Assembly (NCBI GenBank): GCA_019753105.1
Contig: JAIELJ010000004.1
Span: 124,001 to 188,000, forward strand
From: Hyphomonadaceae bacterium
GTDB lineage: Bacteria > Pseudomonadota > Alphaproteobacteria > Caulobacterales > Aquidulcibacteraceae
Direction of reading: 5' to 3'
DNA length: 64,000 nucleotides
This document shows positions 16,069 to 42,492 of the stretch, piece after piece (within the stretch, counting starts at the first letter, position 1; each line of letters begins with the position of its first letter). The notes below the pieces were generated by a model. It was not told where the DNA came from. It did no database searches and worked only from the letters and a program-made list of their open reading frames with translations. The translations under genes were made by a program, and so were the position numbers.

Positions 16069-16073
16069 CGCGC

Positions 16074-16526
16074 ATGCCCCGTTCTGGCATCACCGTCTAT
16101 CTGCCGCCGGCGCTTGAAGAGCGCATCTGCGCAATCGCCAAGGAACGGCATTGCTCGGAATCGAGTCTGATTGCGGATGCTGTGAAGGCCCGCTTCGACA
16201 AGCGGGTCATCGACACAACCAACGCTTCCGAGCGCGAGCGCATGCGCACGGATGCGCGACTCGATAAGGCGATCGGCGAGGCGCTTATCATGAAGGAGGT
16301 CTTGCTCCTCTTCGTGCGCGTCTGGCTTGAGCACAATCCGCCAATTGATCCGAGCCTTGAGGAAAGTGCTGCCGCCAGCGCCGATGCGCGCTTCGAGCGT
16401 TTCCTCGACTATGTCGCGCAAGGCCTTGCGCCCGGCAAATCGATCGCTTCGCGCGAACTGGTGACGCCGGCGCTTCATCCGGATGGTGATCATGCAAGGC
16501 CTGTGGTCGTGGAGCAGGGCCCATGA
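16074..16526 (+). CDS. CopG/ribbon-helix-helix family DNA-binding protein
   Basis: Residues 1-45 form a ribbon-helix-helix (GITVYLPPALEERICAIAKE, then CSESSLIADAVKARF). The remaining 100 residues are helical with no known domain. The gene sits between traG and trbB, the usual place of this CopG-type gene in trb loci, and overlaps trbB as ATGA at 16523. It probably regulates the operon or helps process the transfer origin. Confidence 0.88.
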   Translation: MPRSGITVYLPPALEERICAIAKERHCSESSLIADAVKARFDKRVIDTTNASERERMRTDARLDKAIGEALIMKEVLLLFVRVWLEHNPPIDPSLEESAAASADARFERFLDYVAQGLAPGKSIASRELVTPALHPDGDHARPVVVEQGP

Positions 16527-17464: not shown

Positions 17465-17769
17465 AAAGACATGTTTGGATGTTCGCCGCCGCCTTGATCG
17501 CGATGAGCGTCGCCGGGCCGGCTTATGCGGCAGGGTCGGGCATGCCGTGGGAAGGTCCGCTTGAGCAGGTGGTGGATTCGATAACGGGTCCCGTCGCGCG
17601 CGCCGCCGGCGTCATCGCCATCGTCATCGCGGGCGTCACCATCGCCTTCTCCGAAGGCGGCGGCGGGGTGAGAAAGCTCGCGTGGGCGGGCCTCGGCATC
17701 GCCATCATGTTCGCCGCCGTGAGCTGGGGCCTCACTTTCTTTGGGTTCGCGGGCGGTGCGCTGATTTGA
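17461..17769 (+). CDS. trbC: Conjugal pilin TrbC (VirB2 family)
   Basis: The 102-residue protein has a signal peptide (to about residue 24, AYAAG) and two hydrophobic helices (about 43-63 and 74-96) separated by SEGGGGVRK, the layout of VirB2/TrbC pilins. In RP4 the mature pilin is cyclised by TraF, which is not seen here. Confidence 0.93.
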   Translation: MKRHVWMFAAALIAMSVAGPAYAAGSGMPWEGPLEQVVDSITGPVARAAGVIAIVIAGVTIAFSEGGGGVRKLAWAGLGIAIMFAAVSWGLTFFGFAGGALI

Positions 17770-17782
17770 AGGAGGCCGCGCG

Positions 17783-18046
17783 ATGGAAGACATCCCTGAA
17801 TTCTATGTGACGCCGCTTAGAACTTCGCTCACGCGTCCGATTCTGATGGCTGGCGTGCCGCGGGGCTTCGCCATCCTCAACGGCACCTTGTGCGCCGCGA
17901 TCGCTTTCGGTCTGCAGCAGCCCTTCATCGGCGGCCCGCTCTGGATGGTGCTGCAGGCAAGTGCGGCTTGGGCGGCCGCGCGCGATCCCTGGTTTCTCGA
18001 AACCTGGCCCCGTCACCTCGCCAAGCCTGTCTATTTCGCGACCTGA
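17783..18046 (+). CDS. trbD: Conjugal transfer protein TrbD (VirB3 family)
   Basis: The 87-residue inner-membrane protein has the VirB3 motif at its N-terminus (FYVTPLRTSLTRPILMAGVP) and a hydrophobic hairpin behind it. It starts 13 bases after trbC, preceded by GAAGGAGG, and lies directly before trbE, as in RP4 and Ti plasmids. Confidence 0.93.
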   Translation: MEDIPEFYVTPLRTSLTRPILMAGVPRGFAILNGTLCAAIAFGLQQPFIGGPLWMVLQASAAWAAARDPWFLETWPRHLAKPVYFAT

Positions 18047-18058
18047 CGGAGAGGCGCC

Positions 18059-20518
18059 ATGCTCGACCTTCGTCCCTACAAATCCTCGACGGCGCGCCTC
18101 AGCGATTATCTGCCATGGGCCGCGCTCATCGCGCCGGGCATTGTCTTGAATAAGGACGGCGCCTTCCAGCGGACGCTCGCGTTTCGCGGGCCCGATCTTG
18201 ATTCCTCGACACCGTCAGAGCTAATGGGCGCGAGCACGCGGCTCAATAATGCGCTGCGCCGGTTCGGTTCGGGCTGGTGTCTGCATGTGGAAGCGCGCCG
18301 ATCACCAGCCCCTGGCTATCCCGACGCAGAATGGCCGGATGCATTGTCATGGCTGATCGATGAAGAACGGCGCGCCGTGTTCGAACGCGCCGGCGCGCGC
18401 TTCGAGAGCCGCTATTTCCTGACGCTGACTTGGCTGCCGCCAGCGGAACGGCAAGGCAAGTTGGAGAGCGTGCTGTTCGAAGGCGGGGAGACGAGCAAAG
18501 AGGCGATCGATTACCGCCGCATGCTGGCGCTGTTTGAGACCGAGACCGACGCGCTCATCAATCTCATGGAGACCATGGCGCCGGAGGCGCGCTGGCTCGA
18601 TGACGCGGAGACGCTGACCTATCTGCACGATTGTGTTTCCGACAAACCGCATCGGGTCGCACTTCCTACGACGCCCTTCCACATCGACGCGCTGATCAGC
18701 GATACCGAACTCATTGGCGGGTTGAAACCAAAACTCGGGCGCCGTCATCTCGCGATCGTTTCTGTACGCGCTTACGTCACCGAAACCGAGCCCGGTCTCT
18801 TGGATGCGCTCAATCGCTTGGCGATGTCCTATCGCTGGGTGACGCGGTTTCTGCCGCTCGATCGTGAGGAAGCGCGCCGTGAGATCGAGAAAATCCGCAA
18901 GCGCTGGTTTTCCAAGCGCAAGGGTCTGATGACGCTCTTGCGCGAGGCGCTCTTCCGGGAAGAATCCGCGCTCTTCGATAATGACGCCTCCAACCAGGCC
19001 GATGATGCCGACGCAGCGCTGCAAGAGCTTGGCGCCGACGCCGTCGCAGCCGGTTACACGACACTCACCATCACACTGGCGGAGGAGAGCGAAGACGCGC
19101 TGAAAGAGAGCATCGAGCGCGTCCTCCAGGTCACTGACGGCATGGGCTTTGTCACCGAAGTGGAGGGCGTCAATGCGGTCGAAGCCTGGCTCGGCGGCTT
19201 GCCTGGGCAGGCTTATGCCGATGCGCGCCGGCCAATCATCCTAACGCCCAGCCTTGCGCATCTTTTGCCGCTTTCGGCGGTGTGGGCGGGGCCCGAGCGC
19301 AACGCCCATCTTGACGCGCCGCCGCTCATGCTGACTGCAACCGACGGCGCAACGCCGTTTCGGCTTTCAACCCATGTCGGCGATGTCGGCCACACGCTCG
19401 TGGTCGGCCCGACTGGGGCCGGCAAATCCGTGCTGCTCGCCACGCTCGCCGCGCAATGGTTGCGTTACGAGAACGCGCAAGTCTTCATCTTCGACAAGGA
19501 GCGTTCGGTCCGCGCCACCGTGCTGGGTCTAGGCGGGGACTTCTTCGATCTGGGCGAAGAGGATGCGCTGGGGTTGAAGCCGCTCGAAGGCGTCGATGAT
19601 GCAAGCGAGCGCGCGTGGGCGCTCGACTGGATCGCGGGCCTCCTCGCCGACGCGCACGTCGCGGTCACGCCTGAACTTAAGCGCGAACTTTGGCGCGGGC
19701 TCGAGCTTCTGGGCGAACGGGCGCCAGAAGATCGCACGCTGACGCTCTACGCAGCACTTCTGCAGGACGCATCGGCAAGGGCCGCACTTTTGCCCTTCAC
19801 CCATGCGGGTCCCCTCGGCCGCATCCTTGACCATGATTGCACGACGCTCGCGGAGGGACGCGTGCAGACGTTCGAGATGAACGATTTGATGCGCAAAGGC
19901 GTTGCCGCCGGCGCGGTTCTGGCCGCGCTCTTTCATCTGCTGGAGGCGCGCTTCGACGGGCGCCCGACCTTGCTCATTCTGGACGAGGCCTGGCTCTTTC
20001 TCCGCGACGCCTTTTTTGCGGCGCAGATTCAGGAATGGCTGAAGACGCTGCGCAAGCGAAACGTCTCCGTCATCTTCGCGAGCCAGGAACTCGCCGATGT
20101 TGAGGCAAGCCCGATTGCCTCAACCATCATTGAGGCGTGCCTCACGCGCATCTATCTGCCGAATGACCGCGCCCGCGAGCCGCGTTCGCGCGCCTTCTAC
20201 GAAGCGCTGGGCTTGAACAGCCGCCAGATCGCGCTCATCGCCAGCGCCACGCCTAAGCGCGATTACTATGTGGTGAGCCGGAACGGGGCGCGGCTTTTCG
20301 AACTGGGTCTTGGGCCCGCGGCGCTCGCTTTCGTCGCTGCGTCGAAGCCCGACGACCATTCCACAATCGATGAAGTGCTGGCGCGTGCGCCGGGCCGCGC
20401 CTTCGCGCCTGCCTGGCTCGACGCTCGCGGACAGGGCGCGGCTGCCGAAGCGGTGCGCCGATTCATGAAAGCTGCCGACGCGCTCAAACCGTCCGCCGAT
20501 GCACTGGCGGCTGAATAG
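18059..20518 (+). CDS. trbE: Conjugal transfer ATPase TrbE (VirB4 family)
   Basis: This is the large ATPase of the mating channel (819 residues). The N-terminal VirB4 domain runs to about 430; the C-terminal motor has Walker A GPTGAGKSVLLATL (about 450-463) and Walker B TLLILDEAWLFL (about 639-650), then FASQELADV. Good ribosome site ACGGAGAGGC. Intact and full length. Confidence 0.96.
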   Translation: MLDLRPYKSSTARLSDYLPWAALIAPGIVLNKDGAFQRTLAFRGPDLDSSTPSELMGASTRLNNALRRFGSGWCLHVEARRSPAPGYPDAEWPDALSWLIDEERRAVFERAGARFESRYFLTLTWLPPAERQGKLESVLFEGGETSKEAIDYRRMLALFETETDALINLMETMAPEARWLDDAETLTYLHDCVSDKPHRVALPTTPFHIDALISDTELIGGLKPKLGRRHLAIVSVRAYVTETEPGLLDALNRLAMSYRWVTRFLPLDREEARREIEKIRKRWFSKRKGLMTLLREALFREESALFDNDASNQADDADAALQELGADAVAAGYTTLTITLAEESEDALKESIERVLQVTDGMGFVTEVEGVNAVEAWLGGLPGQAYADARRPIILTPSLAHLLPLSAVWAGPERNAHLDAPPLMLTATDGATPFRLSTHVGDVGHTLVVGPTGAGKSVLLATLAAQWLRYENAQVFIFDKERSVRATVLGLGGDFFDLGEEDALGLKPLEGVDDASERAWALDWIAGLLADAHVAVTPELKRELWRGLELLGERAPEDRTLTLYAALLQDASARAALLPFTHAGPLGRILDHDCTTLAEGRVQTFEMNDLMRKGVAAGAVLAALFHLLEARFDGRPTLLILDEAWLFLRDAFFAAQIQEWLKTLRKRNVSVIFASQELADVEASPIASTIIEACLTRIYLPNDRAREPRSRAFYEALGLNSRQIALIASATPKRDYYVVSRNGARLFELGLGPAALAFVAASKPDDHSTIDEVLARAPGRAFAPAWLDARGQGAAAEAVRRFMKAADALKPSADALAAE

Positions 20519-20530
20519 GAGGACGACATC

Positions 20531-21250
20531 ATGCCTGTGTCCAAACTCAAGCTGATCGGCGCTCTCGCGCTCGCGTTCTTGATGGCGGCCGCCCCCGGGC
20601 GACCGGCGCACGCGCAACGGGTGGTGATCGATCCGTCGAACCTTGCGCAAAACATCACACAGGTTGCGCACATGGTCGAGCAGCTCCGGAACCAGGCAGC
20701 CCAAATCGAACAAGCCGCGGCGATGCTGCGCCAAAATCCGCTGCAATTGTCACCCGAACTCACGCGTTCCATCGGCGAGGCGCGCGCTCTGTTCGCGCGG
20801 GTTGAGGGTCTCGCCTTCGAAGCGCAAGCGCTCGGTGAAGATTTGCGCACGCTCTATCCCGAAACCTGGGAAGCATATGATCTCGCCGACGTGCTCGGCC
20901 GATCGGATCGCTGGCTGGACGAAAGCCGCGTCAGCATTCGCCGCGCCATGGAGGCCGAAGCGCGCGCGACCGCATCGATTGAGCGTGCGCAAGGCCAGAT
21001 TGACCGCGCCATGCGCTCCTCATCAGACGCTGAAGGCCAGACCGGCGCTATTCAGGCTGGCAATCAATTGCTGGGCGTACAAGCCGCCCAGCTCACCGAA
21101 ATCCATGCGCTGCTCGTCGCCCAAGGCCGGGCGCTGCAGACCGAACACATGGAGCGGCTCGCCCGTGAAGAACGCGCCGAAGAAATCCGCCGCCGCGCTT
21201 TCCCAACTGAACGCCGCGCCGCGCCCGATCCCGCGCGTAGCGCGTTTTAA
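20531..21250 (+). CDS. trbJ: Conjugal transfer protein TrbJ (VirB5 family)
   Basis: The signal peptide (about residues 1-29, ending PAHAQ) is followed by a helical, Gln-rich coiled body (VEQLRNQAAQIEQAAAMLRQ) as in TrbJ/VirB5 minor pilus proteins. AGGAGGACGACATC precedes the ATG. The usual small entry-exclusion gene trbK, which normally follows trbJ, is missing: trbL starts 15 bases later. Confidence 0.92.
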   Translation: MPVSKLKLIGALALAFLMAAAPGRPAHAQRVVIDPSNLAQNITQVAHMVEQLRNQAAQIEQAAAMLRQNPLQLSPELTRSIGEARALFARVEGLAFEAQALGEDLRTLYPETWEAYDLADVLGRSDRWLDESRVSIRRAMEAEARATASIERAQGQIDRAMRSSSDAEGQTGAIQAGNQLLGVQAAQLTEIHALLVAQGRALQTEHMERLAREERAEEIRRRAFPTERRAAPDPARSAF

Positions 21251-21264
21251 GGGATGAGCTCGCG

Positions 21265-22302
21265 ATGGAGCCGCAAACCCTCAACAGCTTCCTTGATCGC
21301 TTCCTCGCGGTCGCGGATTCCGGCTTCGGCCTGATCGCCGGCGATATCGCCTTCGTGCTGAACGCGCTCATCATCATCTCGATTACGCTGGCTGGCGCGC
21401 AATGGGCGCTGGCGCAGGAAGCGCCGATGGCGGCCTTCTTCCGCAAGGTCTTGTTTGTCGGGCTCTTCGCGTTTCTCATCAACAACTGGGACGGCCTCTC
21501 GACCGCGATCAATCAATCAGGCGCGATGCTCGGGCTCAAAGCTGGCGGCGACGGCATCTCCATGGCTGATCTGCACAATCCGGGACGGGTCGCAGCGATC
21601 GGCATCGAAATGTTTGGCCGCACCGCAGCGCTCGGCGAAGGCATGAACATCATCACCGACTTTGGACCGCTCATCGCCATCTATGTCGCCGCCTTCACCG
21701 CAATGCTCGGCTTCTTTCTTCTGGCGCTGCAAGTGTTCGTGGCGCTGATTGCGTTCAAGCTTGGTGCGCTCGCGGCCTTCGTTGCACTACCCTGGGGCGT
21801 TTTCAGCGGCACATCATGGGTGGCCGAGCGCCCGATCGGTTGGGTGGTTGGTTCGGCCGTGCGTCTCTTTGTGCTCGCCTTCGTCGCCTCGATCTCGGTG
21901 ACCTTCGTCGACAGCTTGCCGGCGACGCTCACCTTGGACGAGGGCGGGGCGCTCAACGTCATGCTGTTCGGCTTGACGGTGATGGCGCTCGCCTGGTTTG
22001 CGCCCAATCTTGCGACCGAAGTGGTGCAAGGCCAGCCGCATCTCTCGGGCGCCGACGCCCTGCGTGCAGGGACCGGCGCCGGCGTTCGCGCCATCGGCGC
22101 CGGAACACTTGGGGGATGGGTGGCTCTCAAAGGCGCCGGTGCGCTCCTCGGCGGCGCCCCCGGCTTGGCGGGCCGGGCGGGACGCGGCGGTGGAAGCGCT
22201 GGTGGCGGCGGCCGCACACAGCCGCAAGCAGCGATCAATTATGCGGGCATGCGCGCGCGACCCGCGCCGCCGCCCGCCTCAGGCAGTGGAGGCAAATCAT
22301 GA
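21265..22302 (+). CDS. trbL: Conjugal transfer protein TrbL (VirB6 family)
   Basis: A polytopic inner-membrane channel protein with about six helices between residues 20 and 240, then a Gly/Ala/Pro-rich disordered tail (about 270-345). It overlaps trbF as ATGA at 22299. Length 345 is a little short of RP4 TrbL but normal for chromosomal trb loci. Confidence 0.93.
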   Translation: MEPQTLNSFLDRFLAVADSGFGLIAGDIAFVLNALIIISITLAGAQWALAQEAPMAAFFRKVLFVGLFAFLINNWDGLSTAINQSGAMLGLKAGGDGISMADLHNPGRVAAIGIEMFGRTAALGEGMNIITDFGPLIAIYVAAFTAMLGFFLLALQVFVALIAFKLGALAAFVALPWGVFSGTSWVAERPIGWVVGSAVRLFVLAFVASISVTFVDSLPATLTLDEGGALNVMLFGLTVMALAWFAPNLATEVVQGQPHLSGADALRAGTGAGVRAIGAGTLGGWVALKGAGALLGGAPGLAGRAGRGGGSAGGGGRTQPQAAINYAGMRARPAPPPASGSGGKS

Positions 22303-22982
22303 GCTTTCCGTTCAGAGCGCCGGTCAAGAATTTCGCCCCAGAGCCGCCGGAAACTCCATACCGCCGTGCGCAGGCCGAATGGGACGCGCGCATGGGCAGT
22401 GCCGTGCTTTCCGCGCGGAGCTGGCGTCGCGTCGCGTTCGCCGCACTCGCGGCGACGGCGCTCGCGATTGTCGGCGCGACCGCGATCGCCCTGCAGCAGC
22501 GCACCTACGTTCATGTTGTCGAGGTCGACCCGCAGGGCCAGGTCTTGAGCGTACGCGCAGCCGAACGGCAGTGGACGCCAACCGAGGCGCAGACGGCTTA
22601 TCATATCGGTCGTTTCGTCCGCCTCGTGCGCTCATTGCCAACCGATGGCGTGGTGCTGCGCGAGAACTGGCTCGAAGCCTACAGATTTCTGACCCCGCAG
22701 GCGGCGGCGCAATTGACCGAGATCGCGCGCGAGGACGATCCGTTTCTCTCCCTCGGGCGCGTCGGGCGCACGGTCTACGTTCGCTCGATCATCGCGCGCG
22801 CGGACAATTCTTACGAAGTGAGCTGGATTGAGCGCAGCACCAATGGCTCGGGCTCAAATGCGGGCGAAGCGTATAGCGGTGTCTTCACCGTGACGACGCG
22901 TCCGCCGCGCAATGCTGATGACATTGCAGTGAACCCCCTTGGTCTTCTGATCTCCGATTTCTCATGGAGCCGGGTGAGATGA
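22299..22982 (+). CDS. trbF: Conjugal transfer protein TrbF (VirB8 family)
   Basis: ATG 22299 is set by the ATGA overlap with trbL. A short cytoplasmic segment with the TPYRRAQAEWDARMG signature is followed by one helix (about 46-66) and a periplasmic VirB8-like domain. It overlaps trbG as ATGA at 22979. Confidence 0.94.
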   Translation: MSFPFRAPVKNFAPEPPETPYRRAQAEWDARMGSAVLSARSWRRVAFAALAATALAIVGATAIALQQRTYVHVVEVDPQGQVLSVRAAERQWTPTEAQTAYHIGRFVRLVRSLPTDGVVLRENWLEAYRFLTPQAAAQLTEIAREDDPFLSLGRVGRTVYVRSIIARADNSYEVSWIERSTNGSGSNAGEAYSGVFTVTTRPPRNADDIAVNPLGLLISDFSWSRVR

Positions 22983-23872
22983 GAACAACCTTGATTGCAT
23001 GCCTCGGCGGCGCTGCCGTTGCGTGCGGAACCCAATCCTTTGCGCAAGAAGCTGGCTCTTTGAACGAAGTTGCAACGCGTTGTCGTCCCTTGATAACGGC
23101 GCAACCGTCGGCGCCGGAGCGTCGTCCGCGCTCGTCCGCGCAAACCTGGAGCGATGCGAATGGCGCGGCGCGTCAGCGCCCGGAGCGCGCCGGCTTTGAC
23201 GCGGCACGCTATGTCTACACATATGCGCCGGGCGCAATTTTCGAGCTCCTCGCCAACCCCAATTTCATTTCGACGATTCTCCTTGAAGAGGGCGAGACGC
23301 TGACGAATGTAGCCGCGGGTGACACCTCTCGCTGGCAGGTGAGCGAGGCTTACGCGGAAGGGTTGACGGGCGTTCGCACCATTCTCCTGGTCAAACCGGC
23401 GGCTATTGGTCTGCGCACCAACATCGTGCTTGTTACCGATCGGCGCATCTATTTGGTGGAAGCGATTAGCCAGGCCAGCGAGGGCTATTCTGCCGAGATC
23501 GCTTGGTGTTATCCCGACGCCGCCATCGAGATAGCGGACACTCAAGTTCGCGCGCTTAATTTCGACTATCGCGTGCGGGTCGTGCGCGGCGCGCGTCCCG
23601 TGTGGACCCCAGTGCGCGTATTTGATGACGGACGCCGCACTTGGATCGAGTTTCCGGAAGCGACAGAGGCGAACGAATTACCCCCGCTCTTCGTCATCAC
23701 CAGGGAAGGCGCTGAACTCGTCAATTATCGCGTCGATGGGCGCCGCTACCTGGTCGATCGCGTGTTTGACCGTGCGGAACTTCGCTTGGGCGTACGAGCG
23801 CCACAGATCGTGCGCATTGAACGCGCCGAACTCATCTCCTCGCAGCGACCGTCGCGGCGAGGCCGCCCATGA
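22979..23872 (+). CDS. trbG: Conjugal transfer protein TrbG (VirB9 family)
   Basis: ATG 22979 is set by the ATGA overlap and gives a signal peptide (to about residue 23, SFAQE). The body has the VirB9 segments YTYAPGAIFELLANPNF and IVLVTDRRIYLVEA, then a C-terminal domain (ELPPLFVITREGAELVNYRV). It forms the outer-membrane part of the channel. The lipoprotein gene trbH is absent from this locus, as in many chromosomal versions. Confidence 0.94.
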   Translation: MRTTLIACLGGAAVACGTQSFAQEAGSLNEVATRCRPLITAQPSAPERRPRSSAQTWSDANGAARQRPERAGFDAARYVYTYAPGAIFELLANPNFISTILLEEGETLTNVAAGDTSRWQVSEAYAEGLTGVRTILLVKPAAIGLRTNIVLVTDRRIYLVEAISQASEGYSAEIAWCYPDAAIEIADTQVRALNFDYRVRVVRGARPVWTPVRVFDDGRRTWIEFPEATEANELPPLFVITREGAELVNYRVDGRRYLVDRVFDRAELRLGVRAPQIVRIERAELISSQRPSRRGRP

Positions 23873-24963
23873 ATGCCGCCACGCAGTCCGAGGCGCCGTC
23901 GCCCGCGCCGCCGCCGGATCTTTCCATTCGGGCGCGCCCGCCGTCGCCCAAACGGCTCTCGCGCAAGGTGCTGCTGGGCGCCGCCATCACTTTAGCGGCC
24001 ATCGTTGCAGCTGCGCTGTTGTTCGGATTGAGCACAGGGCCCAGCCGGTTCGCGCGCCAAACCGACGCGCTGGCAAATGCCGGAGGTCCGCCGGAATCGA
24101 TCCAGGGTGCGCCCGCCGATTATGCGAGCGATGATCTCGGCGGCGGCGCCGACGAGCCTGGTGTTGAGACGGCGTTTGGAGACGATGCGCTGGCGCCGCC
24201 AACAGATCCAATGTGGTCAGGACAGGCGCCGGCATCGCCGCCCGCCTCAACATCCACCCCAACCGAAGCCGAGCTCCAGGAGGCGGCGCGCACCGCGCCC
24301 ATCCTATTCAGCTCCACCAGCGGCGTTGGCGAAAGCGATCAGAGCGACCGTTTGCCGTCGCGACTTCTGCCGCCGCGCTCGCGCTATGAGATCATGGCGG
24401 GATCGGTCATCGCGGCGGCGCTTGCGACCGAACTCAATTCCGATGCGCCGGGGCGCGTCATCGCCCAAGTGACGGCGCCGGTCTTCGATACCATCACCGG
24501 CGCGCATCTTCTCATTCCGCAGGGCTCGCGTCTTATCGGGACATACGACAATGCGGTCGCTTACGGCGATCGCAGATTGGTGTTGGTCTGGAACAGACTC
24601 ATTCTGCCGAACGGCTGGAGCATCAATCTAGAGAATATGGAGGGCGCCGATCCGACAGGCGCCGGCGGACTTCGCGACCGGACGGACAATCATTTTGATC
24701 GTCTCGCTGGCGCCATCGCGCTCTCGGCCATCATCAGCGTCGTCGCCAACAATGCCGAAGAAGACGATGAGGGCGCGTCCTTGTCGCAAAGCCTGGGCGA
24801 CGCCGCCGCCCAAGAAGCGGCGCGCACCGGCGCCAGGATCGTCGAGCGCGAGCTTTCGGTTCGTCCGACTTTGCGTGTGCGCGCCGGCGCGCCCGTGCGT
24901 GTCCTGGTCATGCGCGACATTACGTTGCGTCCTTATCGCGAGAACCGAAATGACCGCCGGTGA
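23869..24963 (+). CDS. trbI: Conjugal transfer protein TrbI (VirB10 family)
   Basis: A cytoplasmic Pro-rich head, one helix (about 41-60), a long disordered Pro/Ala linker (about 65-150) and the VirB10 beta-barrel domain (LPPRSRYEIMAGSVIAAAL; LIPQGSRLIGTYDNAVAYGD; LILPNGWSINLENM). It starts in an ATGA overlap with trbG and overlaps the next gene by 14 bases. Confidence 0.95.
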   Translation: MNAATQSEAPSPAPPPDLSIRARPPSPKRLSRKVLLGAAITLAAIVAAALLFGLSTGPSRFARQTDALANAGGPPESIQGAPADYASDDLGGGADEPGVETAFGDDALAPPTDPMWSGQAPASPPASTSTPTEAELQEAARTAPILFSSTSGVGESDQSDRLPSRLLPPRSRYEIMAGSVIAAALATELNSDAPGRVIAQVTAPVFDTITGAHLLIPQGSRLIGTYDNAVAYGDRRLVLVWNRLILPNGWSINLENMEGADPTGAGGLRDRTDNHFDRLAGAIALSAIISVVANNAEEDDEGASLSQSLGDAAAQEAARTGARIVERELSVRPTLRVRAGAPVRVLVMRDITLRPYRENRNDRR

Positions 24964-26678: not shown

Positions 26679-27554
26679 TCATGGATTGCACCATGGACAT
26701 TGGGATGGCTCGGTGTGGGAGAGCCCGTCCTCGCGCCCTTTCGTTTCGCGCAGCGCGCAGCTCGCGCAGCCGAAAACTTCATCGATGACCCATTCGGTTG
26801 GCGCGTCGCAGGCCGAGCAGGGCAGGCCACGGACGACGTCAACCCGGCCAAATCCAGGCGCGCCGCACGCCGGGCAGAGCGCTGCCAGACGCTGGGCAAG
26901 CTTTAACCCCAAAGCCGCAAGCGAAGCCATGCGCGTCGGGTTCATATGCGCGCGCATATCGGTTTCAACACACGCTGTGGCTTCGTCACTGACTTTGGCG
27001 CAAACCGCCATCGCGCGCTTCAGTGCGCCTAAGTCCTGGAGCCCCTTGAAGACTGGCGCGCCCTCAGACAGGGCGCGACCTTCGCGCCCAGGGGTGACGA
27101 CGACGGCGTGTTTTGGAAAGCCAATGCGCGCCAAGAACGGTTCGAGCTCCAACATCGTCTCGACACGCGCATAAGCATAATTGGTCTCGGTGATCAGGGC
27201 TTCGCTGATGCGGAGCCTGCGCTCATCGTCAATGAAGGTGAGCAATTCGCGGCCCGCCGGCACAAAGGGCATCTGCGGATGCGGGCCAAAACTGCCTTCG
27301 CTGGCGAGGCCCAGATCGCACCCGGCGATCGCCATGCCCAAACGAGCCTTCCGCTCCGCGACATCAAGCATTGATCCGACACGCTCGATCTCGCCGCAGA
27401 AAGTGCCGAGCTGATCGGTGTCGATACCGGGCGCTGCAGAGAGCTCGATCCCGAGCTCCGACATGAAAGGACCGGAGAAGGCTGCTTCCTTTCCATGCAT
27501 GCTCGCCAGTACGGCGCGGCGGCCGTGATAAGGGTGATCACGTTTCGCGACCAT
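26679..27554 (-). CDS. DUF6671 family protein with C-terminal zinc ribbons
   Basis: The 291-residue protein has an N-terminal domain of unknown function (HGKEAAFSGPFMSELGIELS; then ETNYAYARVETMLELEPFLA) matching what I know as DUF6671. The last 65 residues carry four Cys pairs (CPAC, CSAC, CASC, CPWC), that is two zinc ribbons. Its start shares one base with the cysD stop (TGATG), making it the last gene of the dabB-dabA-cysD operon. The zinc ribbons suggest RNA, DNA or protein binding; no enzymatic role can be read off. Confidence 0.82.
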   Translation of the reverse strand: MVAKRDHPYHGRRAVLASMHGKEAAFSGPFMSELGIELSAAPGIDTDQLGTFCGEIERVGSMLDVAERKARLGMAIAGCDLGLASEGSFGPHPQMPFVPAGRELLTFIDDERRLRISEALITETNYAYARVETMLELEPFLARIGFPKHAVVVTPGREGRALSEGAPVFKGLQDLGALKRAMAVCAKVSDEATACVETDMRAHMNPTRMASLAALGLKLAQRLAALCPACGAPGFGRVDVVRGLPCSACDAPTEWVIDEVFGCASCALRETKGREDGLSHTEPSQCPWCNP

Positions 27555-28444
27555 CAGAAATAACCCTCCCGTTTCAGCGCTTCGAGCGAGCCTTGATCGC
27601 TGATGCGTCCCTGCCTTTCCGACAGGCGCGCAGCGCGTGTTTCGGCGATGATCGCTTCAGCACTCGCCGCTGCGCTTTCGATCGCCGCGGTGACTGGCCA
27701 GCATCCGAGCGTGCGAAACCGCACCTGGCGTTGCGCCGCAGTCTCGCCCGTGCGCCAGATCATGCGCGCGGGATCGTCGACGACGATGAGCGCGCCTTGA
27801 CGCGCAACGACGGGACGGGGCGCCGCGAAATAAAGCGGCGCCAGCGGCACGCGCCGTGTGCAGATATAGGTCCAGATGTCGTCTTCGGTCCAATTCGAGA
27901 GCGGAAACACGCGCAAGGTTTCGCCTGCGCCGCGGCGCCAATTGTAGTTGGACCAAAGTTCGGGGCGTTGTTTTCTGGGATCCCAGCCATGCTGGGCGTT
28001 CCGCACCGAGACGATGCGTTCCTTGGCGCGGGTCTTCTCTTCATCACGGCGCGCGCCGCCGAAGACGACGTCGAACCTGTGCGCGTCGAGCGCTTGTTTC
28101 AGCGCCTCGGTGCGCATGACGCGGGTATAGTGCGCTCCATCGCGCTCGGGATGAAGGGCGAGCCTGCGTCCCTCTTCGTTGACATGGACCATGAGCCGGA
28201 AGTCAAAAGCCGCCGCGAAGGTGTCCCGGAAGGCCAAGAGGTCGGCGAACTCGAACGTCGAATCGACATGCACGAGCGGCAGAGGCGGCGCGGCCGGATA
28301 GAAGGCGCGCGCCGCCACATGTGCAAGCACGGTTGAATCCTTGCCTCCAGAGAAGAGTAGCGCCGGACGCTCTGCTTCGGCGACGCCGTCGCGCAGGATA
28401 TGGATCGCCTCCGCCTCCAGCCGATCCAGGTGCGATAGACTCAT
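27554..28444 (-). CDS. cysD: Sulfate adenylyltransferase subunit 2 (CysD-like ATP pyrophosphatase) without CysN
   Basis: The 296-residue protein follows the CysD pattern from end to end: PP-loop S32-G-G-K-D-S37, HVDSTFEFADLLAFRD, FGGARRDEEKTRAKER, RPELWSNYN, RVFPLSNWTEDDIWTYI, FRTLGCWPVTAAIES and a C-terminal RQGRISDQ…KREGYF. CysD normally needs the GTPase CysN to make adenosine phosphosulfate from ATP and sulfate. No cysN is present; instead it is coupled by ATGA to dabA and by TGATG to the DUF6671 gene. The PP-loop reads SGGKDS rather than E. coli's SIGKDS. Confidence 0.92.
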   Translation of the reverse strand: MSLSHLDRLEAEAIHILRDGVAEAERPALLFSGGKDSTVLAHVAARAFYPAAPPLPLVHVDSTFEFADLLAFRDTFAAAFDFRLMVHVNEEGRRLALHPERDGAHYTRVMRTEALKQALDAHRFDVVFGGARRDEEKTRAKERIVSVRNAQHGWDPRKQRPELWSNYNWRRGAGETLRVFPLSNWTEDDIWTYICTRRVPLAPLYFAAPRPVVARQGALIVVDDPARMIWRTGETAAQRQVRFRTLGCWPVTAAIESAAASAEAIIAETRAARLSERQGRISDQGSLEALKREGYF

Positions 28445-31008
28445 GAGCGCAAGGCGATGACGGCGTCACCCCAACAGAGATCGCCCCAATAGCGGTTGAT
28501 CGATCCGTCTTCGTCGATCGCGTAAAGATGGATCCATTTGTTCTCGACCAATTGACGCACGCTTTCGTGCGCGATGATCACATTGTTGATCGCCTCCATC
28601 GGCGCGGCGATAAAAACGTTGAGCCGCAACGGCTCATGCATGAGCCGGCGCCCGTCATGCACCGATTGCCAGGGGAGGCCAGGTCTCAGATCGCCGCCAT
28701 TGCCTTCCAGGACGCCAAGCGCGCCGACGACATTGTGCAGCGTCTTGTTGCCGCTGCCGAAGGCGGCATTGTTCACGGCCGAGCCGTAATATTGAAGGTT
28801 GATCCAACTCGCGACCACCATCGGCGCGGTCATGATGAGTTCAAGCACGCGGAACTCACTGTCCTTGCGCCAGTCATAATCATGCAAGAAAGCGCGGCCA
28901 TGGAGATCGAGCGCTTTGGTGCGCTCGCGCGGCGCGGCGATGAATGCAGCGTTGCCGGCCAAACCCCACTCGGGACGTACTTGGCTCCAGTCGCGGCTGC
29001 GCCTGACAATCGCCGCATTGAGGTCGCCGTCCTTCGAGACACCCAATAAGGGCGCGCGCTCGCCGCGCGCACGTGCGGCGGCATGCGACAGCCAATCTCG
29101 GAGCCGCACAAGTTCCGCACGGTGAGACGAGGGGACGAGTTCGGTATTGAAGAGCTCAATCTCATCAGTGGTGGTGTTGTGGAGACAGCCGATGAACCAA
29201 GTATCCTCGGGGATGAGAATGCCGCGCCCGCGCAGTCCGGCGCGCACATTGGCATCGTTCAGAATGGCCGCGGCGACGCGCGCATTGGCTTCGCCGGTAT
29301 GTCCCCCGCAGGCGCCGCAATCGAGGCCAGAAGCGTGCGGATTGTTGACGCTGGTGCTGCCGTGACCTGAGAGCATGACGATGCGTGCGAAGGTTTCGGT
29401 CATCGACATCGCCCGCAGCACCGCTTCGGCCATGTCGATGCGCGCCGCACTTGCAAAACCAGTAGCGCGCCCATCGACGATTTGAGGATCAAGCCGAGGC
29501 GCCAGTCTTGCGGCGACATCGGCGTCGAGCCCATCGCGATTGGGATCGGGCACTGGACGCGTGGCGCCCAGCCCGTCGCTCACCAACTTCGCCGCAAAGC
29601 CAAGCCCCATAGTCTCGACATAAGCGAAGGACGACACCGCCGATTGCTTGAACGCCTTCCACGCCTTGGCCGCCCGCCGGCGCATCAGCCGCAGACCCAA
29701 GGTCTCGACTTCCTCTTCGGCGCTCGCGCCCTTGACCTCCTCGCAAACGATTACGGCAGGTTTCAACAGCACCGGGCATTGCGCGCCGCCGCGGCGATTG
29801 CCGATCGGGATGTATTCGATCGGAAAACCGAAGAAGCCGGCAAAGCCGATGGTCTCGATCTCGGGGGAGGCGCTTTCGAGGGCGCGGCGGAAAACTTCCG
29901 AGCGGACGTCGATGCAGAAGGCCGCCTGCACTGCTGGTCGCGCGCGCGGGCGCGGAGCTGACTGCGCTTGCGCAGTCAGCTTTGAGAGCAGACGTCTTTG
30001 GAACGCGCGCTCATAAGCATCTTGCAACACAAGCCGCGCCTGCAGCGTTGTCTCGATCGTCGAGACCTCGTCTGTCGCTTCGGACGCCGCCTGCATCGCC
30101 TCGGTCCAAGCCTTGCGGAATGCCGGGTCGTTTTGCTCCTTGAAGAGGGCGTAGCCCCACGCCACCCGGATAGCGAGAAGGTTGACGAGCGTATCGTCGC
30201 TGCGCCCGTAAAGAGCATTGTCCCAAACCCGATAGCGCGCATACGCGGCCCAGCCTTGAATATCGAACAAGGCGCGGAAGAGGTAGTCCTCAAGGGCGCG
30301 TTCCGGGATGGCGAGTTCGGCCACGATAAAGGCGATGGCGTCTTCCGGTTTCTCGGGCAGGCGCGCCACGGTTTGCCGAAATGCCCGCACGCCCATGGTC
30401 TCAGGCCCTCGATCAAGCCGCATCGCGGCGCGCCAGGCCGCGTAGGGTCGCAAGTCACGCCAAGGGCTCGCCCAGGCGGCTTGACCTTCGTCGAAATAAG
30501 CCGCGCACCATTTCGAGATCTCATCAATCATGAAGGCGGTGCGCGATACGTGCGTGTCGCCGCCAGCCAGACGGTCAAGGATCTCAGCGATTGTCGCCAC
30601 GCGCGGCAAGCGCGGGCGCTCGTCAGCGCGTGACGCGGTTGCGGAGAGCTTGATCACAACAACGTCAAAGACATCGCTCAAACCAGACTCGGCGATGACA
30701 TCGCCTATATCTTGATCTGTGATCGAGCCGTCTTCGATGAACGGCGCATAGAACGAAGCCGGCATCACCATGTCGGTGTGCGCCACGCGCGCAAACGTCT
30801 GGCAGGTTCGGGCAAAGCTCTGATCGGCAAAGCCCACGAAAGGATTGACGGCGACGAAATGCTTCAGCGGCCAGAGCGGTGCGATGCGCCCGCACGCGCG
30901 CGCGATGGCTTCATCTATCGCCAAACGCGCGGGAGCGGCGGCGCCATCATTGGCGGGTCGCGGGAGAACGTCCGCAGACATCGTGGACATGAGTTCGCTC
31001 TTTTTCAT
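28441..31008 (-). CDS. dabA: Inorganic carbon transporter subunit DabA (DUF2309)
   Basis: ATG 31008 overlaps the dabB stop as ATGA, giving 855 residues, the normal length. DabA is a membrane-associated, zinc-binding, beta-carbonic-anhydrase-like protein that with DabB takes up CO2 and traps it as bicarbonate using the ion gradient. The four key residues known from Halothiobacillus are all here with the right spacing: C365 and D367 (FCIDVRSE), H549 (SGHGSTS) and C564 (LDCGACGG). An in-frame ATG at 31053 would start inside dabB and is less likely. It is coupled to cysD downstream. Confidence 0.94.
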   Translation of the reverse strand: MKKSELMSTMSADVLPRPANDGAAAPARLAIDEAIARACGRIAPLWPLKHFVAVNPFVGFADQSFARTCQTFARVAHTDMVMPASFYAPFIEDGSITDQDIGDVIAESGLSDVFDVVVIKLSATASRADERPRLPRVATIAEILDRLAGGDTHVSRTAFMIDEISKWCAAYFDEGQAAWASPWRDLRPYAAWRAAMRLDRGPETMGVRAFRQTVARLPEKPEDAIAFIVAELAIPERALEDYLFRALFDIQGWAAYARYRVWDNALYGRSDDTLVNLLAIRVAWGYALFKEQNDPAFRKAWTEAMQAASEATDEVSTIETTLQARLVLQDAYERAFQRRLLSKLTAQAQSAPRPRARPAVQAAFCIDVRSEVFRRALESASPEIETIGFAGFFGFPIEYIPIGNRRGGAQCPVLLKPAVIVCEEVKGASAEEEVETLGLRLMRRRAAKAWKAFKQSAVSSFAYVETMGLGFAAKLVSDGLGATRPVPDPNRDGLDADVAARLAPRLDPQIVDGRATGFASAARIDMAEAVLRAMSMTETFARIVMLSGHGSTSVNNPHASGLDCGACGGHTGEANARVAAAILNDANVRAGLRGRGILIPEDTWFIGCLHNTTTDEIELFNTELVPSSHRAELVRLRDWLSHAAARARGERAPLLGVSKDGDLNAAIVRRSRDWSQVRPEWGLAGNAAFIAAPRERTKALDLHGRAFLHDYDWRKDSEFRVLELIMTAPMVVASWINLQYYGSAVNNAAFGSGNKTLHNVVGALGVLEGNGGDLRPGLPWQSVHDGRRLMHEPLRLNVFIAAPMEAINNVIIAHESVRQLVENKWIHLYAIDEDGSINRYWGDLCWGDAVIALRS

Positions 31009-32606
31009 GCGCGTGGGCCTGGTTGTGAGGTGTTCAAGGGCTTCGGCCACCATCTGAGCACCAGCCGGTTGGCGAGCGTGTTGAGATAAAGACCCTGGGC
31101 AAGGTGCACATAAAGCGCCTGGCCCATGGGTGACGCATTCGCGCGTCCCAGTTGGCTCTGCAGCCAGGTGATGGCGGCGAACGCGCCGATTACGCCAAGC
31201 GTAATTGCAAGGTCGATCGGCGCATTGAGCGCCGGCGCCGGCGGCAGCGCCCCAGCAAAGAGCGTTTCAACACCACGCTGCAGGGCGAAATAGACCACCG
31301 CCACCAGCACGGCTGCGCTCGCAGCGCGCGCGATCACATAAGGATTGGGACGCTCGTCGATCGCGTTGGCGACCAGAAGCGTCAGGCTCATCAGCAGGAT
31401 GGCGCCGAGCGTGAAAACCCCAGGCTTGTCGGCAAGGCCCGCGCCGAAGCTCCAGGCGACGCCGGCCGCGATGGCGAGAACACCCGCGAGCGCGAGGAAA
31501 AAACGCGCCGGGTGGGGCGCGCCGCCCGGGTTCATGGACCAGGAGGCGCGCAAAAGATCGATGACGCCGCCGGACGATAAGAACGCATGCGCCTTGTAGA
31601 GCGAATGAGCCACGATATGCAGGAGCGCCGCTGCGAAGGCGCCGAGGCCGCATTGCAACAGCATGAAGCCCATTTGTGCGACAGTCGAATAAGCGAGGCT
31701 CACCTTGACCGAGGTTTGGGTCAGCATCACCAGCGAACCGAAGAGCGCGGTGATGGCTCCAACGATAGCCAGCACATGTAGCGCGGGCGTGGAAAGCGCC
31801 ATGACGTCGGCCAAGCGCAAAACCAGGAAACCACCGGCATTGATTATGCCCGCGTGCAAGAGCGCCGAAACCGGCGTCGGCGTCTCCATGACTTCGAGGA
31901 TCCAGCCGTGCAGCGGAAATTGCGCGGACTTCAGCACCGCGGCGATGGCGATGAGTATGGCGGCCGCTGTCAGACCCGCGGGCGCCGCCTCACCCCAGAG
32001 CGATGCGGCGCTAAAGACGCTTTCATAGTCGAACCGCCCCACATGCGCGAAGAGGATCAAGACCGCGCCGATAAGGCAAAGGTCGCCCAACCGGCTCACG
32101 ATGAACTTCTTGCGGCCAGCTAGTCGCGCATTGGTGCGTGCGCCGTAGAAGAGCAGGAGCCGGTTCAACGCAATGCTGGTGGCGATCCAGGCCAGCGTCA
32201 TCAGCACCAGATTGCCCGCAATGATGAAGGTCATAACCGCAGCGATGGTCAGCGCCATTTGCCGCAGGAAGAGCCCATGATTTGGATCGCCATCGAGATA
32301 ATTGCGGCTGTAGCGCAAAACGATGACGCCGACGAAGGCGACGAGCGCGAACATCACGGCGCTCACAGCGTCGACATAAGTCCCAAGTCCAGCGCCGAAT
32401 GCGCCCCAGGTTGAACTGATGAGCGGGCCGTCCAGAGCGACGGCCACGCCCGCGGCTATAGCGATGGCAAGCGCCATGAGCGCCGCCATGAAGACGACAC
32501 GCGCCAACCGCGCCGGCGCTTCTTTGGCGTTTGGCCAAAAGCTCGCTGCCACAAGCGCCAGGGGCGCGGCCATCACCAGCCAAGGCGCAAGATCGTTCAA
32601 GCTCAA
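31005..32606 (-). CDS. dabB: Inorganic carbon transporter subunit DabB (NuoL-like antiporter family)
   Basis: The 533-residue polytopic membrane protein belongs to the proton-conducting complex I/Mrp antiporter family (Lys/His motifs in LKSAQFPLHGWILEVMETPT and LLHAGIINAGG; then VAHSLYKAHAFLSSG). Pairing with DabA identifies it as DabB rather than NuoL. The start is TTG: 32606 gives the longest frame, but TTG 32600 has better spacing (seven bases) from GGAGGA. First gene of the operon, 95 bases from the divergent LysR gene. Confidence 0.93.
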   Translation of the reverse strand: MSLNDLAPWLVMAAPLALVAASFWPNAKEAPARLARVVFMAALMALAIAIAAGVAVALDGPLISSTWGAFGAGLGTYVDAVSAVMFALVAFVGVIVLRYSRNYLDGDPNHGLFLRQMALTIAAVMTFIIAGNLVLMTLAWIATSIALNRLLLFYGARTNARLAGRKKFIVSRLGDLCLIGAVLILFAHVGRFDYESVFSAASLWGEAAPAGLTAAAILIAIAAVLKSAQFPLHGWILEVMETPTPVSALLHAGIINAGGFLVLRLADVMALSTPALHVLAIVGAITALFGSLVMLTQTSVKVSLAYSTVAQMGFMLLQCGLGAFAAALLHIVAHSLYKAHAFLSSGGVIDLLRASWSMNPGGAPHPARFFLALAGVLAIAAGVAWSFGAGLADKPGVFTLGAILLMSLTLLVANAIDERPNPYVIARAASAAVLVAVVYFALQRGVETLFAGALPPAPALNAPIDLAITLGVIGAFAAITWLQSQLGRANASPMGQALYVHLAQGLYLNTLANRLVLRWWPKPLNTSQPGPRA

Positions 32607-32701
32607 CTCCTCCGTCCGACGGCGGCGGGGAGTAAGACGCTCCTCTTATTTCGTCCAATTCAAAGATTGCAATGGATTGTTGTGTTTAATAAAACAAAGA
32701 T
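32607..32701. promoter_or_regulatory. Divergent dabB / LysR control region
   Basis: The 95 bases between the two starts are AT-rich compared with the surroundings. They hold small dyads, ATTGCAAT (32666-32673) and CAAT-GG-ATTG (32670-32679), close to the LysR start, plausible as an autoregulatory LysR-type site. No firm -35/-10 pair was assigned. Confidence 0.4.
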
Positions 32702-33577
32702 ATGGCAGACCTCAATTATCATCACCTGCGCTATTTTCACGCCATCGTGGAAGCGGGCGCGCTGACCAAGGCTGCCGAGCGTCTCAACGTGTCGCCCTCG
32801 GCATTGTCGGTGCAGCTTGGCCAGCTTGAGGCGCAGCTTGGACATAGGTTGTTTGACCGTGTCGGGCGCAAGCTCGTGCTCACCGAAGCAGGGCGTATTG
32901 CGCTGCAGAGCGCTGAAACGATCTTCGATGCTGGCCAAGAATTGTTGAGCACGCTGCGCGCTGGCGCAGCGAAGCGAACATCGGTGCGGATCGGCGCACT
33001 GGCGACCTTATCGCGAAACTTTCAGGTCGCGTTCCTAAGGCCGCTGACAGGGCGCGGCGATGTGCATGTTGTTATGCGCTCAGGCGGCATGCGCGATCTC
33101 ATGGCCATGCTCGACGCCCACCATATCGACGTGCTTTTGACCAATGCGCCGCCGCCGCGCGACGAGACCAGCGCCTGGACCGCACACCTCATTGCCGAGC
33201 AGACGATCAGCCTCATCGGCCCGCATCGGCGCGGGCGAAAACCATCGGCCGAGAAGGTGCTCGCCAGCGAGCCGCTCATTGTGCCGACGCCGGAGAACCA
33301 TTTGCGCGGCGACTTCGATGCGCTCGCGTCCCGCATGCGAATTTCCCCCCGCATCGCGGCGGAGGTGGATGATATGGCGATGCTGCGCCTGCTGACGCGC
33401 GAGGGGTTTGGCTTTGGCGTCGCACCTCGCGTCGTGGTTCAGGACGAATTGGCCAACGGCGTCCTCGCCGATTACGGCACGCTGCCGGGGCTGAAAGAGA
33501 CGTTCTACGCCATCTCGCCCACAAGGCGTTTTCCCAATCCGGTCGTGGCGGCGCTGGTGAAGGCGTCGCTGGCTTGA
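32702..33577 (+). CDS. LysR-type transcriptional regulator, probable regulator of the dab operon
   Basis: The N-terminal winged helix-turn-helix is clear ([40 protein letters not shown]), followed by a periplasmic-binding-like effector domain (about 90-291; [20 protein letters not shown] type segment). It diverges from dabB; LysR-type CbbR/CcmR proteins control CO2-uptake genes in other bacteria, so the same job is inferred here. Ribosome site is weak. Confidence 0.92.
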
Positions 33578-40930: not shown

Positions 40931-41248
40931 ATGTTGAAGGTTCCTGCCGAGCTTCTGGGCGACCTAGGCGAGTCCATTCGCGCCCGCCGGATCGCCTTTA
41001 ACTACTCCCAGCAGGAGGCGGCCCGACGCGCCGGAATCGGGGTGCGGACTTTACGGCGGATCGAGGCGGAAGGGCAGGGCACGATCGAAAGTCTGATCAA
41101 CGTCGCGATCGCGCTGCGGTGTGAGGATAGATTTTGCGATCTCTTCCCGCTGCCGCCTGCGCGCAGCATGGATGAGTTACTGGAGCAGCAGCACAGAACA
41201 GCCGAACTCAAGCGTCCTCAACGCGCGCGCAAGGCGAAGCGACCATGA
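40931..41248 (+). CDS. hipB: HipB-like antitoxin, XRE helix-turn-helix
   Basis: The 105-residue protein has an XRE/Cro helix-turn-helix (IRARRIAFNYSQQEAARRAG, IGVRTLRRIEAEGQGTIESL). It overlaps hipA as ATGA at 41245 and has mirror-image operators right upstream, as HipB repressors do. No ribosome site precedes the ATG, fitting a leaderless message. Confidence 0.9.
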   Translation: MLKVPAELLGDLGESIRARRIAFNYSQQEAARRAGIGVRTLRRIEAEGQGTIESLINVAIALRCEDRFCDLFPLPPARSMDELLEQQHRTAELKRPQRARKAKRP

Positions 41249-42492
41249 GACTGCCTCGCGGCGCACCTCTCAACATCGCGCTTGAATTCGACGTGGCGCG
41301 TGCGCGCTTGCCGGCTGGGCGCCTCGCCATGAGCGACTCTCTCGCACAACTTGAATGGTCGTCTGAGCTTATAGCGAGCACTCTTAGTCCGGCGGGGCTC
41401 TACTATCCGCCGGAGCCCGAACTTCACGCGGCGCGCACGCGGAACTTCAACGGCCTGCACGGTTTCTTGGCCGACGCATTGCCCGAAGGTTGGGGCTATC
41501 TCGTGATGCGCAAACGCCTCGCCAAGCTTGGCGTGGACATTGCTTCGCTGACCTCTGCTGAGCAACTCGCGCTTGTCGGCGAGACAGGCAGGGGCGCGCT
41601 CGTATTTGAGCCGGCGACAACGCCAAGCGACGAGGTTGAGACGCTCGACCTCGATGCGCTGGCGGATGAAGCAGCTTTGATCTTGAGTGGCGACGATGGA
41701 GACCTCGCTGAGACTTTGGCTGCGCTCGCCGGCGGCTCGGGTGGGGCGCGGCCCAAAGTCCATGTCGGTTTTGACGACGGGGGCAATGTTTCGGTTGGCT
41801 CGGGTGAGATCGCGCCGGGCCACAGCGCATGGATCGTCAAATTTCGCGCGCCGGAAGATCCCATTGACATCGGGCCACTCGAATACGCCTACGCATCCAT
41901 GGCGCGCGCAGCGGGGATCGACGTCCCCGACCACAAGCTCCTCGCATCGAAGAAGAGGCCGGGCTATTTCGCCACCCGTCGTTTTGATCGTCCTGAACCA
42001 GGGGCGCGCCTGCATATGCTCTCTTTGTCTGGCGCGATTGAGTCTCCGCCGCAGACGCCATCGAGCTACGACACATTGCTGCGGGCTACGCGCGCCATCA
42101 CGCGCCGCGCCGATGATGTCGTGGCCGCATTCCGACGCATGGTGTTTAATGTTCTTGCGCACAACCGCGACGACCACACGCGCCAGCATGCGTTCCTCAT
42201 GGACCGAGCGGGCGATTGGCGATTGGCGCCGGCGTACGATCTGACCTACGCGGCCGGACCTGGTGGGGAACACTACCTCGATATCGAAGGCGAAGGGCGC
42301 AAACCGACGCGCGTTCACGTCGAGGCGCTTGGCAAGCGCCATGGGCTTTCCATAAAGCAAACCGCTACTGCAATCGACGACGTGCGCGCTGCGATTTCAC
42401 ATTGGGACGCGGTCGCCAACGCGGCGGGCGTGACTGTGGCGTCCAGAAAAATGGTTGGGGAAGCGCACACGCGAGTAGCGGCGTCGTTCTAA
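41245..42492 (+). CDS. hipA: HipA-like serine/threonine kinase toxin
   Basis: The 415-residue protein has the HipA layout: N-terminal domain (GLHGFLADALPEGWGYLVM), Gly-rich loop (GGSGGARPKVHV, about 170-181), catalytic loop VLAHNRDDHTRQHAFLM (Asn/Asp) and the metal-binding LAPAYDLTYA. HipA kinases phosphorylate aminoacyl-tRNA synthetases (GltX in E. coli), stopping growth; the target here is unknown. No frameshift or lost motif was seen, so the pair is probably active. Confidence 0.93.
   Translation: MRLPRGAPLNIALEFDVARARLPAGRLAMSDSLAQLEWSSELIASTLSPAGLYYPPEPELHAARTRNFNGLHGFLADALPEGWGYLVMRKRLAKLGVDIASLTSAEQLALVGETGRGALVFEPATTPSDEVETLDLDALADEAALILSGDDGDLAETLAALAGGSGGARPKVHVGFDDGGNVSVGSGEIAPGHSAWIVKFRAPEDPIDIGPLEYAYASMARAAGIDVPDHKLLASKKRPGYFATRRFDRPEPGARLHMLSLSGAIESPPQTPSSYDTLLRATRAITRRADDVVAAFRRMVFNVLAHNRDDHTRQHAFLMDRAGDWRLAPAYDLTYAAGPGGEHYLDIEGEGRKPTRVHVEALGKRHGLSIKQTATAIDDVRAAISHWDAVANAAGVTVASRKMVGEAHTRVAASF

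Follow-up and report, generated by a model that had tools for sequence, protein, structure and literature searches.

Among described systems, the DAB/DAC carbon pumps, represented by DAB2 of Halothiobacillus and by MpsAB, come closest to the locus considered here, a four-gene operon, dabB-dabA-cysD-DUF6671, of a Hyphomonadaceae bacterium. It lies in a stretch of 64,000 nucleotides (contig JAIELJ010000004.1, positions 124,001 to 188,000), hereafter the window. The locus shares with these pumps a DabA whose zinc and Asp-Arg site is complete, a DabB and a divergent LysR-type regulator, but its operon runs on into a CysD that lacks a CysN and into a protein of the DUF6671 family, in a host without a RuBisCO match. 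A second point of reference is the CysD subunit of the CysDN sulfate adenylyltransferase (PDB 1zun). The window CysD resembles it in passing both CysD cut-offs and in keeping the PP-loop motif SGGKDS and most conserved columns; it differs in that no CysN is adjacent, in being the third copy of its genome and in having a glutamate at position 65, where the solved protein has a lysine. The third comparison is with the low-CO2 loci of autotrophs (SbtA/SbtB, CmpABCD, CmpR/CbbR), in which a regulator likewise stands beside an uptake system for dissolved inorganic carbon (DIC). Unlike them, the DUF6671 loci described below join housekeeping enzymes of CO2 and bicarbonate metabolism, and 19 of 23 genomes with such a locus gave no RuBisCO match (the other four did, one of them at 58.6 bits). 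We put at about one in two the probability that the window holds a low-CO2 operon whose CysD is an isoform for CO2 limitation, probably serving the resident CysN.

The coupling of DAB, a CysN-less CysD and DUF6671 is real, recurrent and beyond chance. The list of open reading frames (ORFs) places the four genes on the minus strand, at positions 26679-32606, with the LysR gene divergent upstream:

31005 to 32606, minus strand: dabB, NuoL/Mrp-like proton-conducting membrane subunit of up to 533 amino acids (PF00361 and PF00662)
28441 to 31008, minus strand: dabA (DUF2309/PF10070), 855 amino acids, counted from the ATG overlapping the dabB stop
27554 to 28444, minus strand: cysD, 296 amino acids, third CysD of the genome
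28250 to 28252, minus strand: cysD codon 65 (numbering from the start at 28444), which encodes the Glu of HVDSTFEF
26679 to 27554, minus strand: DUF6671 gene, 291 amino acids (PF20376)
32702 to 33577, plus strand: gene for the LysR-type regulator, divergent
32607 to 32701: intergenic region separating dabB from the LysR gene, presumably with a control function; its length is 95 bp for a dabB start at 32606

As a preliminary description of this DNA, made from the sequence alone, had claimed, the genes overlap at every junction, by ATGA between dabB and dabA, ATGA between dabA and cysD and TGATG between cysD and DUF6671 (GCGCATGAAAAAG, GCGCTCATGAGTCTA and TATTTCTGATGGT, respectively), in the manner of a coupled operon. 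The start of dabB is uncertain and may be the TTG at 32606, with GGAGG just two bases 5' of it, or a codon further in. DabB, whose gene adjoins dabA through the first of these overlaps, gives a Proton_antipo_M match (Pfam). DabA matches PF10070 with 933 bits across the whole model and is the single DabA match in the genome. Its zinc and active-site residues, which the same description had listed as intact (C365, D367, H549 and C564), are all in place, as is R369; the corresponding site of DAB2 comprises C351, D353-R355, H524 and C539, according to the structural report (PMC13144422).

The complete order, from the divergent LysR gene to DUF6671, is found again in Mesorhizobium terrae (L167), and Mesorhizobium INR15 (L176) has the same four genes, the LysR side being outside the stretch fetched; both sets are on plasmids. 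A dabA-cysD-DUF6671 run stands at the contig ends of two further loci (L021 and L136). Elsewhere in the window genome there are two more cysD genes, each with its own cysN (L001 and L003). Because these pairs are separate and the gene order recurs, the proposal of a coupled set, as first put forward, holds. Our literature search returned, among the matches listed, none with DUF2309 alongside CysD or sulfate adenylyltransferase. As a separate observation, a protein of about 320 amino acids without a Pfam match (cluster c18; L066, 5041-6012) is encoded 5' of dabB in the DAB loci of Melainabacteria and their kin.

The window CysD matches PAPS_reduct by Pfam and clears the two curated CysD models, TIGR02039 with 403.9 bits (cut-off 396.6) and NF009214 with 416.7 bits (cut-off 413); no cysN lies beside its gene, just as the preliminary description had it. 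With this protein, we count 15 CysN-less, or lone, CysDs near DabA or DUF6671 (the others are in L017, L021, L041, L049, L053, L059, L063, L066, L068, L136, L137, L167, L176 and L246), all without a CysN in the stretch fetched, which for the Methylocystis plasmid pGW6_1 (L246) amounts to 44 kb. CysD matches occur in 215 of 385 genomes and on 340 plasmids (match at 1e-40); from the genomes, the 30 matches fetched were read, window included, and from the plasmids 8. DUF6671 adjoins 13 of the 15 lone CysDs, the exceptions being L137 and the Methylocystis case, where it lies 8 kb off. Another CysD, beside a CysN, is present in all ten genomes of the first ten lone CysDs and in G618, the genome of L137, hence in 11 of 12 checked; this count covers the twelve lone CysDs other than the three from plasmids (L167, L176 and L246), and in four Melainabacteria the CysN-like match scores under the CysN cut-off.

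A tree of 22 CysDs contains at least three changes between the lone and the CysN-linked condition, and a quick tree of 53 sequences, with well-supported branches, at least four. Read as gains, the changes would mark recruitments in the Melainabacteria, in planctomycete L059, in G261 and in the clade that holds the window. The lone CysD of the planctomycete is 88% identical to the CysN-linked CysD of the same organism. Since lone CysDs occupy several places in the tree, and those of the Melainabacteria and the planctomycete are nearest to the host's own kind, the pattern suggests that they must fit the CysN of the host. Separately from these, the CysN-paired CysDs of L003 (G000) and L121 (G299) form a branch with GHNY or GHNF in place of WKF; their genes follow a further PAPS_reduct gene and stand next to a short CysN.

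What sets lone CysDs apart is residue 65. It is Glu in all 15 of them, the window protein included, and Lys, within the consensus HVDxxWKF, in 42 of 44 CysN-linked CysDs, the other two having Asn. Among 14 lone and 39 CysN-linked sequences it was the sole column without overlap between the groups (Glu in 14/14, Lys in 37/39), and the six CysDs read later fit the split (Glu in the lone Methylocystis protein, Lys in five CysN-linked ones). Residue 65 follows VDT, a motif of the PP-loop fold, and is therefore probably near the active site. Of the 83 columns conserved among CysN-linked CysDs, 69 are retained in at least 80% of the lone proteins and 56 in all of them. The constraint on the lone proteins is accordingly strong, and contact with a CysN may persist. 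In our view, lone CysDs most likely still bind ATP and work with the resident CysN. A plainer view would make them spare copies with no special role, carried on a mobile element, in which Lys65 was lost once the contact with CysN was gone. Conjugation genes do adjoin the operon (14029-24963) and the four-gene set does occur on plasmids, but drift would be expected neither to yield Glu in 15 of 15 proteins from several places in the tree nor to preserve 69 of 83 conserved columns, which makes this view very unlikely in our estimation.

One could also envision that the Glu65 form is a new bicarbonate-activating enzyme, in which ATP and bicarbonate would give a carboxy-adenylate feeding carboxylations, the change from Lys to Glu having adapted a pocket for sulfate to bicarbonate. 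A charge swap at a single position, shared by lone CysDs of different parts of the tree, would suit this idea, as would their occurrence with DIC genes or DUF6671 and without an adjacent CysN. In G310, moreover, the Glu CysD (L136) is the sole CysD match (6 of 10 candidates scored). An analogy may be seen in the solute-binding proteins NrtA and CmpA, for nitrate and bicarbonate, respectively, where basic residues of the former are replaced in the latter. At the place of the NrtA lysine, CmpA presumably has a Glu. NrtA employs K269 and H196 where CmpA has Ca2+ (PMC8786288). Yet one would expect a new enzyme to form a single clade, whereas lone CysDs stand in at least four tree places; they also retain 69 of the 83 conserved columns and pass the CysD cut-offs, and a contact of residue 65 with the oxyanion is presumed. 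We therefore consider a bicarbonate-activating CysD improbable.

The preliminary description proposed a different use of CysD, which as an adenylyltransferase or ATP pyrophosphatase would act on some other substrate or have DUF6671 for its partner; Glu65 would then serve the partner. CysD and DUF6671 are neighbors for 13 of the 15 lone CysDs, and the invariant residues of DUF6671 look enzyme-like. The window protein matches PF20376 with 167.6 bits (gathering score 23.8; Pfam), and in an alignment of 56 sequences, from which L071 was kept out for its stops, H20, K22, D47, G50-T51-F52, R58, K69, E86, E103 and D109 are invariant, together with TDMRA..NP.R and four CxxC pairs. However, no CysD occurs within 5 kb of DUF6671 in 75 of the 84 loci and the Glu CysDs of L137 and Methylocystis do not adjoin DUF6671, so that such a partnership seems unlikely; for DUF6671 as an adenylyl acceptor or carrier, as first suggested, nothing was found in its favor. 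Its N-terminus bears a likeness to the HAM1/ITPase house-cleaning pyrophosphatases that is suggestive only: the HHalign probability for this weak match is 77%, over residues 15-80 only, and 63% in another run, as against at most 9.4% for 23 other families and less than 1% for reversed controls. DUF6671 differs from these enzymes in its additional conserved motifs and its zinc-ribbon tail. The YjjX profile does not match it, a result of little weight since HAM1 against YjjX fails too. A comparison with solved structures returned 16 matches, mostly zinc ribbons, the best with an E value of 0.17, and a literature search found no paper naming the family.

DUF6671 is a hallmark of CO2 and bicarbonate gene loci across phyla. 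Scanning genome contigs with the DUF6671 protein of the window as query gave eighty loci; a family search of 299 genomes of the phylum gave six with a match, including the window's own and one under the cut-off. For the 84 loci counted here (L016, L019 and L020, from L014-L100, were left out beforehand), ORFs from a crude caller were clustered and recurrent neighbors named by Pfam from one representative per cluster. Within 5 kb of DUF6671 we find DabA in 21 loci, an SbtA-type bicarbonate transporter in 18, isocitrate dehydrogenase in 17, DabB in 14, CysD in 9, PyrC in 8 (its Pfam match is Amidohydro_1; plasmid annotation and inspection by eye make it a dihydroorotase), PurE and PurK in 7 each, Sua5 in 6 and IlvD in 4. 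At least one CO2-linked family is present at this distance in 65 of the 84 loci, and a DIC transporter in 39. Of the 229 ORFs that lie within 1 kb of DUF6671, 78 belong to families linked to CO2 or bicarbonate, compared with 5 of the 428 at 5-10 kb. CysD, which the preliminary description took for an obligate neighbor, is thus not one, with 9 loci against 21 for DabA and 18 for SbtA, and for this reason the modified pump that it envisaged, with CysD as a fixed part, is not indicated and was rejected. An apparent fusion of isocitrate dehydrogenase to DUF6671 in L052 and L070 was likewise dismissed by eye, its long N-terminal part resembling a wrong-frame reading over the dehydrogenase gene; neither locus is counted as bearing that enzyme. 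In L039, a small protein encoded between SbtA and DUF6671 (9615-9944) resembles, on inspection by eye, the PII-like SbtB.

Twelve plasmids searched afterwards provide a better test of the association than the 84 loci. In the 5-6 kb fetched around DUF6671, taking the best place per record (15 places in all), seven have DabA, three SbtA (two of these being plasmids of one strain) and the other two PyrC. On pGW6_1 of Methylocystis rosea, a divergent LysR gene precedes dabB-dabA-bioD-ccrA-cysD-aminotransferase, followed 8 kb further by ilvD-pyrC-DUF6671-acyl-CoA carboxylase, with formylmethanofuran dehydrogenase genes nearby. PyrC and IlvD carry a lysine carbamate derived from CO2; our literature search found no paper joining carbamylated lysine and dihydroxyacid dehydratase. 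The IlvD-type family has at least two copies in 7 of 7 genomes, a count that spans the whole IlvD/Edd family and is no proof of an extra IlvD. PurK_C has a single match per genome in all seven genomes with PurK beside DUF6671. In cyanobacteria, purK mutants require high CO2, the PurK step being needed at low CO2 only (PMC10880623).

The regulator leaves room for another stimulus. Relatives of the window LysR, at 45-55% identity, adjoin DAB or SbtA genes in L023, L038, L062, L064, L079 and L167, and its best NCBIfam match is NhaR, at 103.6 bits, far under the cut-off of 219. A LysR near DUF6671 on a Pseudomonas hygromyciniae plasmid is annotated NhaR, and three plasmids have TerC/Alx genes close to DUF6671. 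The locus might thus respond to alkaline pH, sodium or metal stress, not to CO2. But PurEK, Sua5, BioD, crotonyl-CoA carboxylase, SbtA and DabAB have CO2 or bicarbonate in common, not sodium or metals, and DUF6671 also occurs in records named Sulfobacillus and Acidithiobacillus, which are acidophiles; we find a pH or metal stimulus hard to credit.

If the low-CO2 reading is correct, the operon would serve growth under scarce CO2 and bicarbonate in a host without RuBisCO. The putative LysR regulator would turn on DabB-DabA, in which an ion gradient would drive one-way hydration of CO2, trapping bicarbonate in the cell for the carboxylations that heterotrophs, too, require. DUF6671 accompanies DIC transporters (DabAB, SbtA) and users of bicarbonate or CO2 (PurEK, Sua5, acyl-CoA carboxylase), the CO2 releaser isocitrate dehydrogenase and the enzymes with a lysine carbamate (PyrC, IlvD); the Methylocystis plasmid adds BioD and crotonyl-CoA carboxylase in the stretch that holds its DUF6671. 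The lone CysD would be a low-CO2 isoform rather than the everyday CysD, recruited several times, mostly in genomes that also hold a CysD-CysN pair, and having at each recruitment Glu rather than Lys at residue 65. The Glu might replace a lysine carbamate and free the step from CO2, or alter the holding of the oxyanion. The gene order, its recurrence, the association with DUF6671, the Lys/Glu split and the absence of a RuBisCO match are observed; that CO2 regulates the operon, that its CysD pairs with the host's CysN, and what Glu65 and DUF6671 do, we infer.

Several observations weigh against this account. G310, with its single Glu CysD and no CysD-CysN pair seen, speaks against a fit to the resident CysN as a rule, and in the window genome the pairing is unsure because the lone CysD is just 53% and 47% identical to the host's two CysN-linked CysDs. 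Both CysDs with Asn65 have a CysN. L137 has dabA and a Glu cysD, with no DUF6671 in the following 1.5 kb. The label changes in the trees could be gains or losses, and the tree of 53 sequences is a quick one. Nineteen of the 84 loci have no CO2-linked gene within 5 kb, several of these stretches being truncated; the families were grouped as CO2-linked post hoc, similarity to the window protein governed the choice of L021-L100, and the ORF caller was crude. The notion of CO2-independent isozymes as a general rule had to be abandoned, since the PyrC and IlvD of DUF6671 loci keep their lysine (9 IlvD and 10 PyrC copies inspected). Finally, we know of no CO2 dependence of CysD.

The host genome comprises 3.87 Mb in 20 contigs. 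A family search gave no RuBisCO match, so the bacterium probably does not use the Calvin cycle; besides its two cysD-cysN pairs, this host has in the window cysD a third copy, without a cysN. A second DUF6671 copy (L020; contig C1:188599-189123) has an in-frame TAG and lies beside a Sua5 (threonylcarbamoyl-AMP synthase) gene. The conjugation genes next to the operon (plus strand) encode a coupling protein and VirB11-, VirB4-, TrbL/VirB6-, CagX/VirB9- and TrbI/VirB10-like proteins, and are perhaps part of an integrative conjugative element. Because they adjoin the operon and relatives of the set reside on plasmids, the set may move between genomes. A conserved protein of 72-77 amino acids (IAWVLAHPxMSxWLKxAL) is encoded directly 3' of DUF6671 in L167 (6931-7164), L176 (5866-6099) and L166 (6880-7098); inspection by eye did not reveal it 3' of the window DUF6671. 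The window further contains a gene for a HipA-type kinase (41245-42492, plus strand), possibly of a toxin-antitoxin module.

It is conceivable that the dependence on CO2 reaches further. Ordinary CysD might carry a CO2-derived carbamate on the lysine of HVDxxWKF, so that sulfate activation would fail when CO2 is scarce; the repeatedly evolved Glu isoform would mimic the carbamate and join the resident CysN, and DUF6671 would mark a widespread CO2-starvation regulon of heterotrophs. As a whole, this chain strikes us as rather unlikely. The Lys-to-Glu split in CysD nevertheless constitutes a precise prediction that can be tested by one point mutant. For DUF6671, the loci described here supply a function to look for, namely, coping with scarce CO2 outside autotrophy. 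They also provide a list of enzymes seemingly grouped with bicarbonate uptake, of relevance to the long-standing problem of the CO2 requirement of non-autotrophs.

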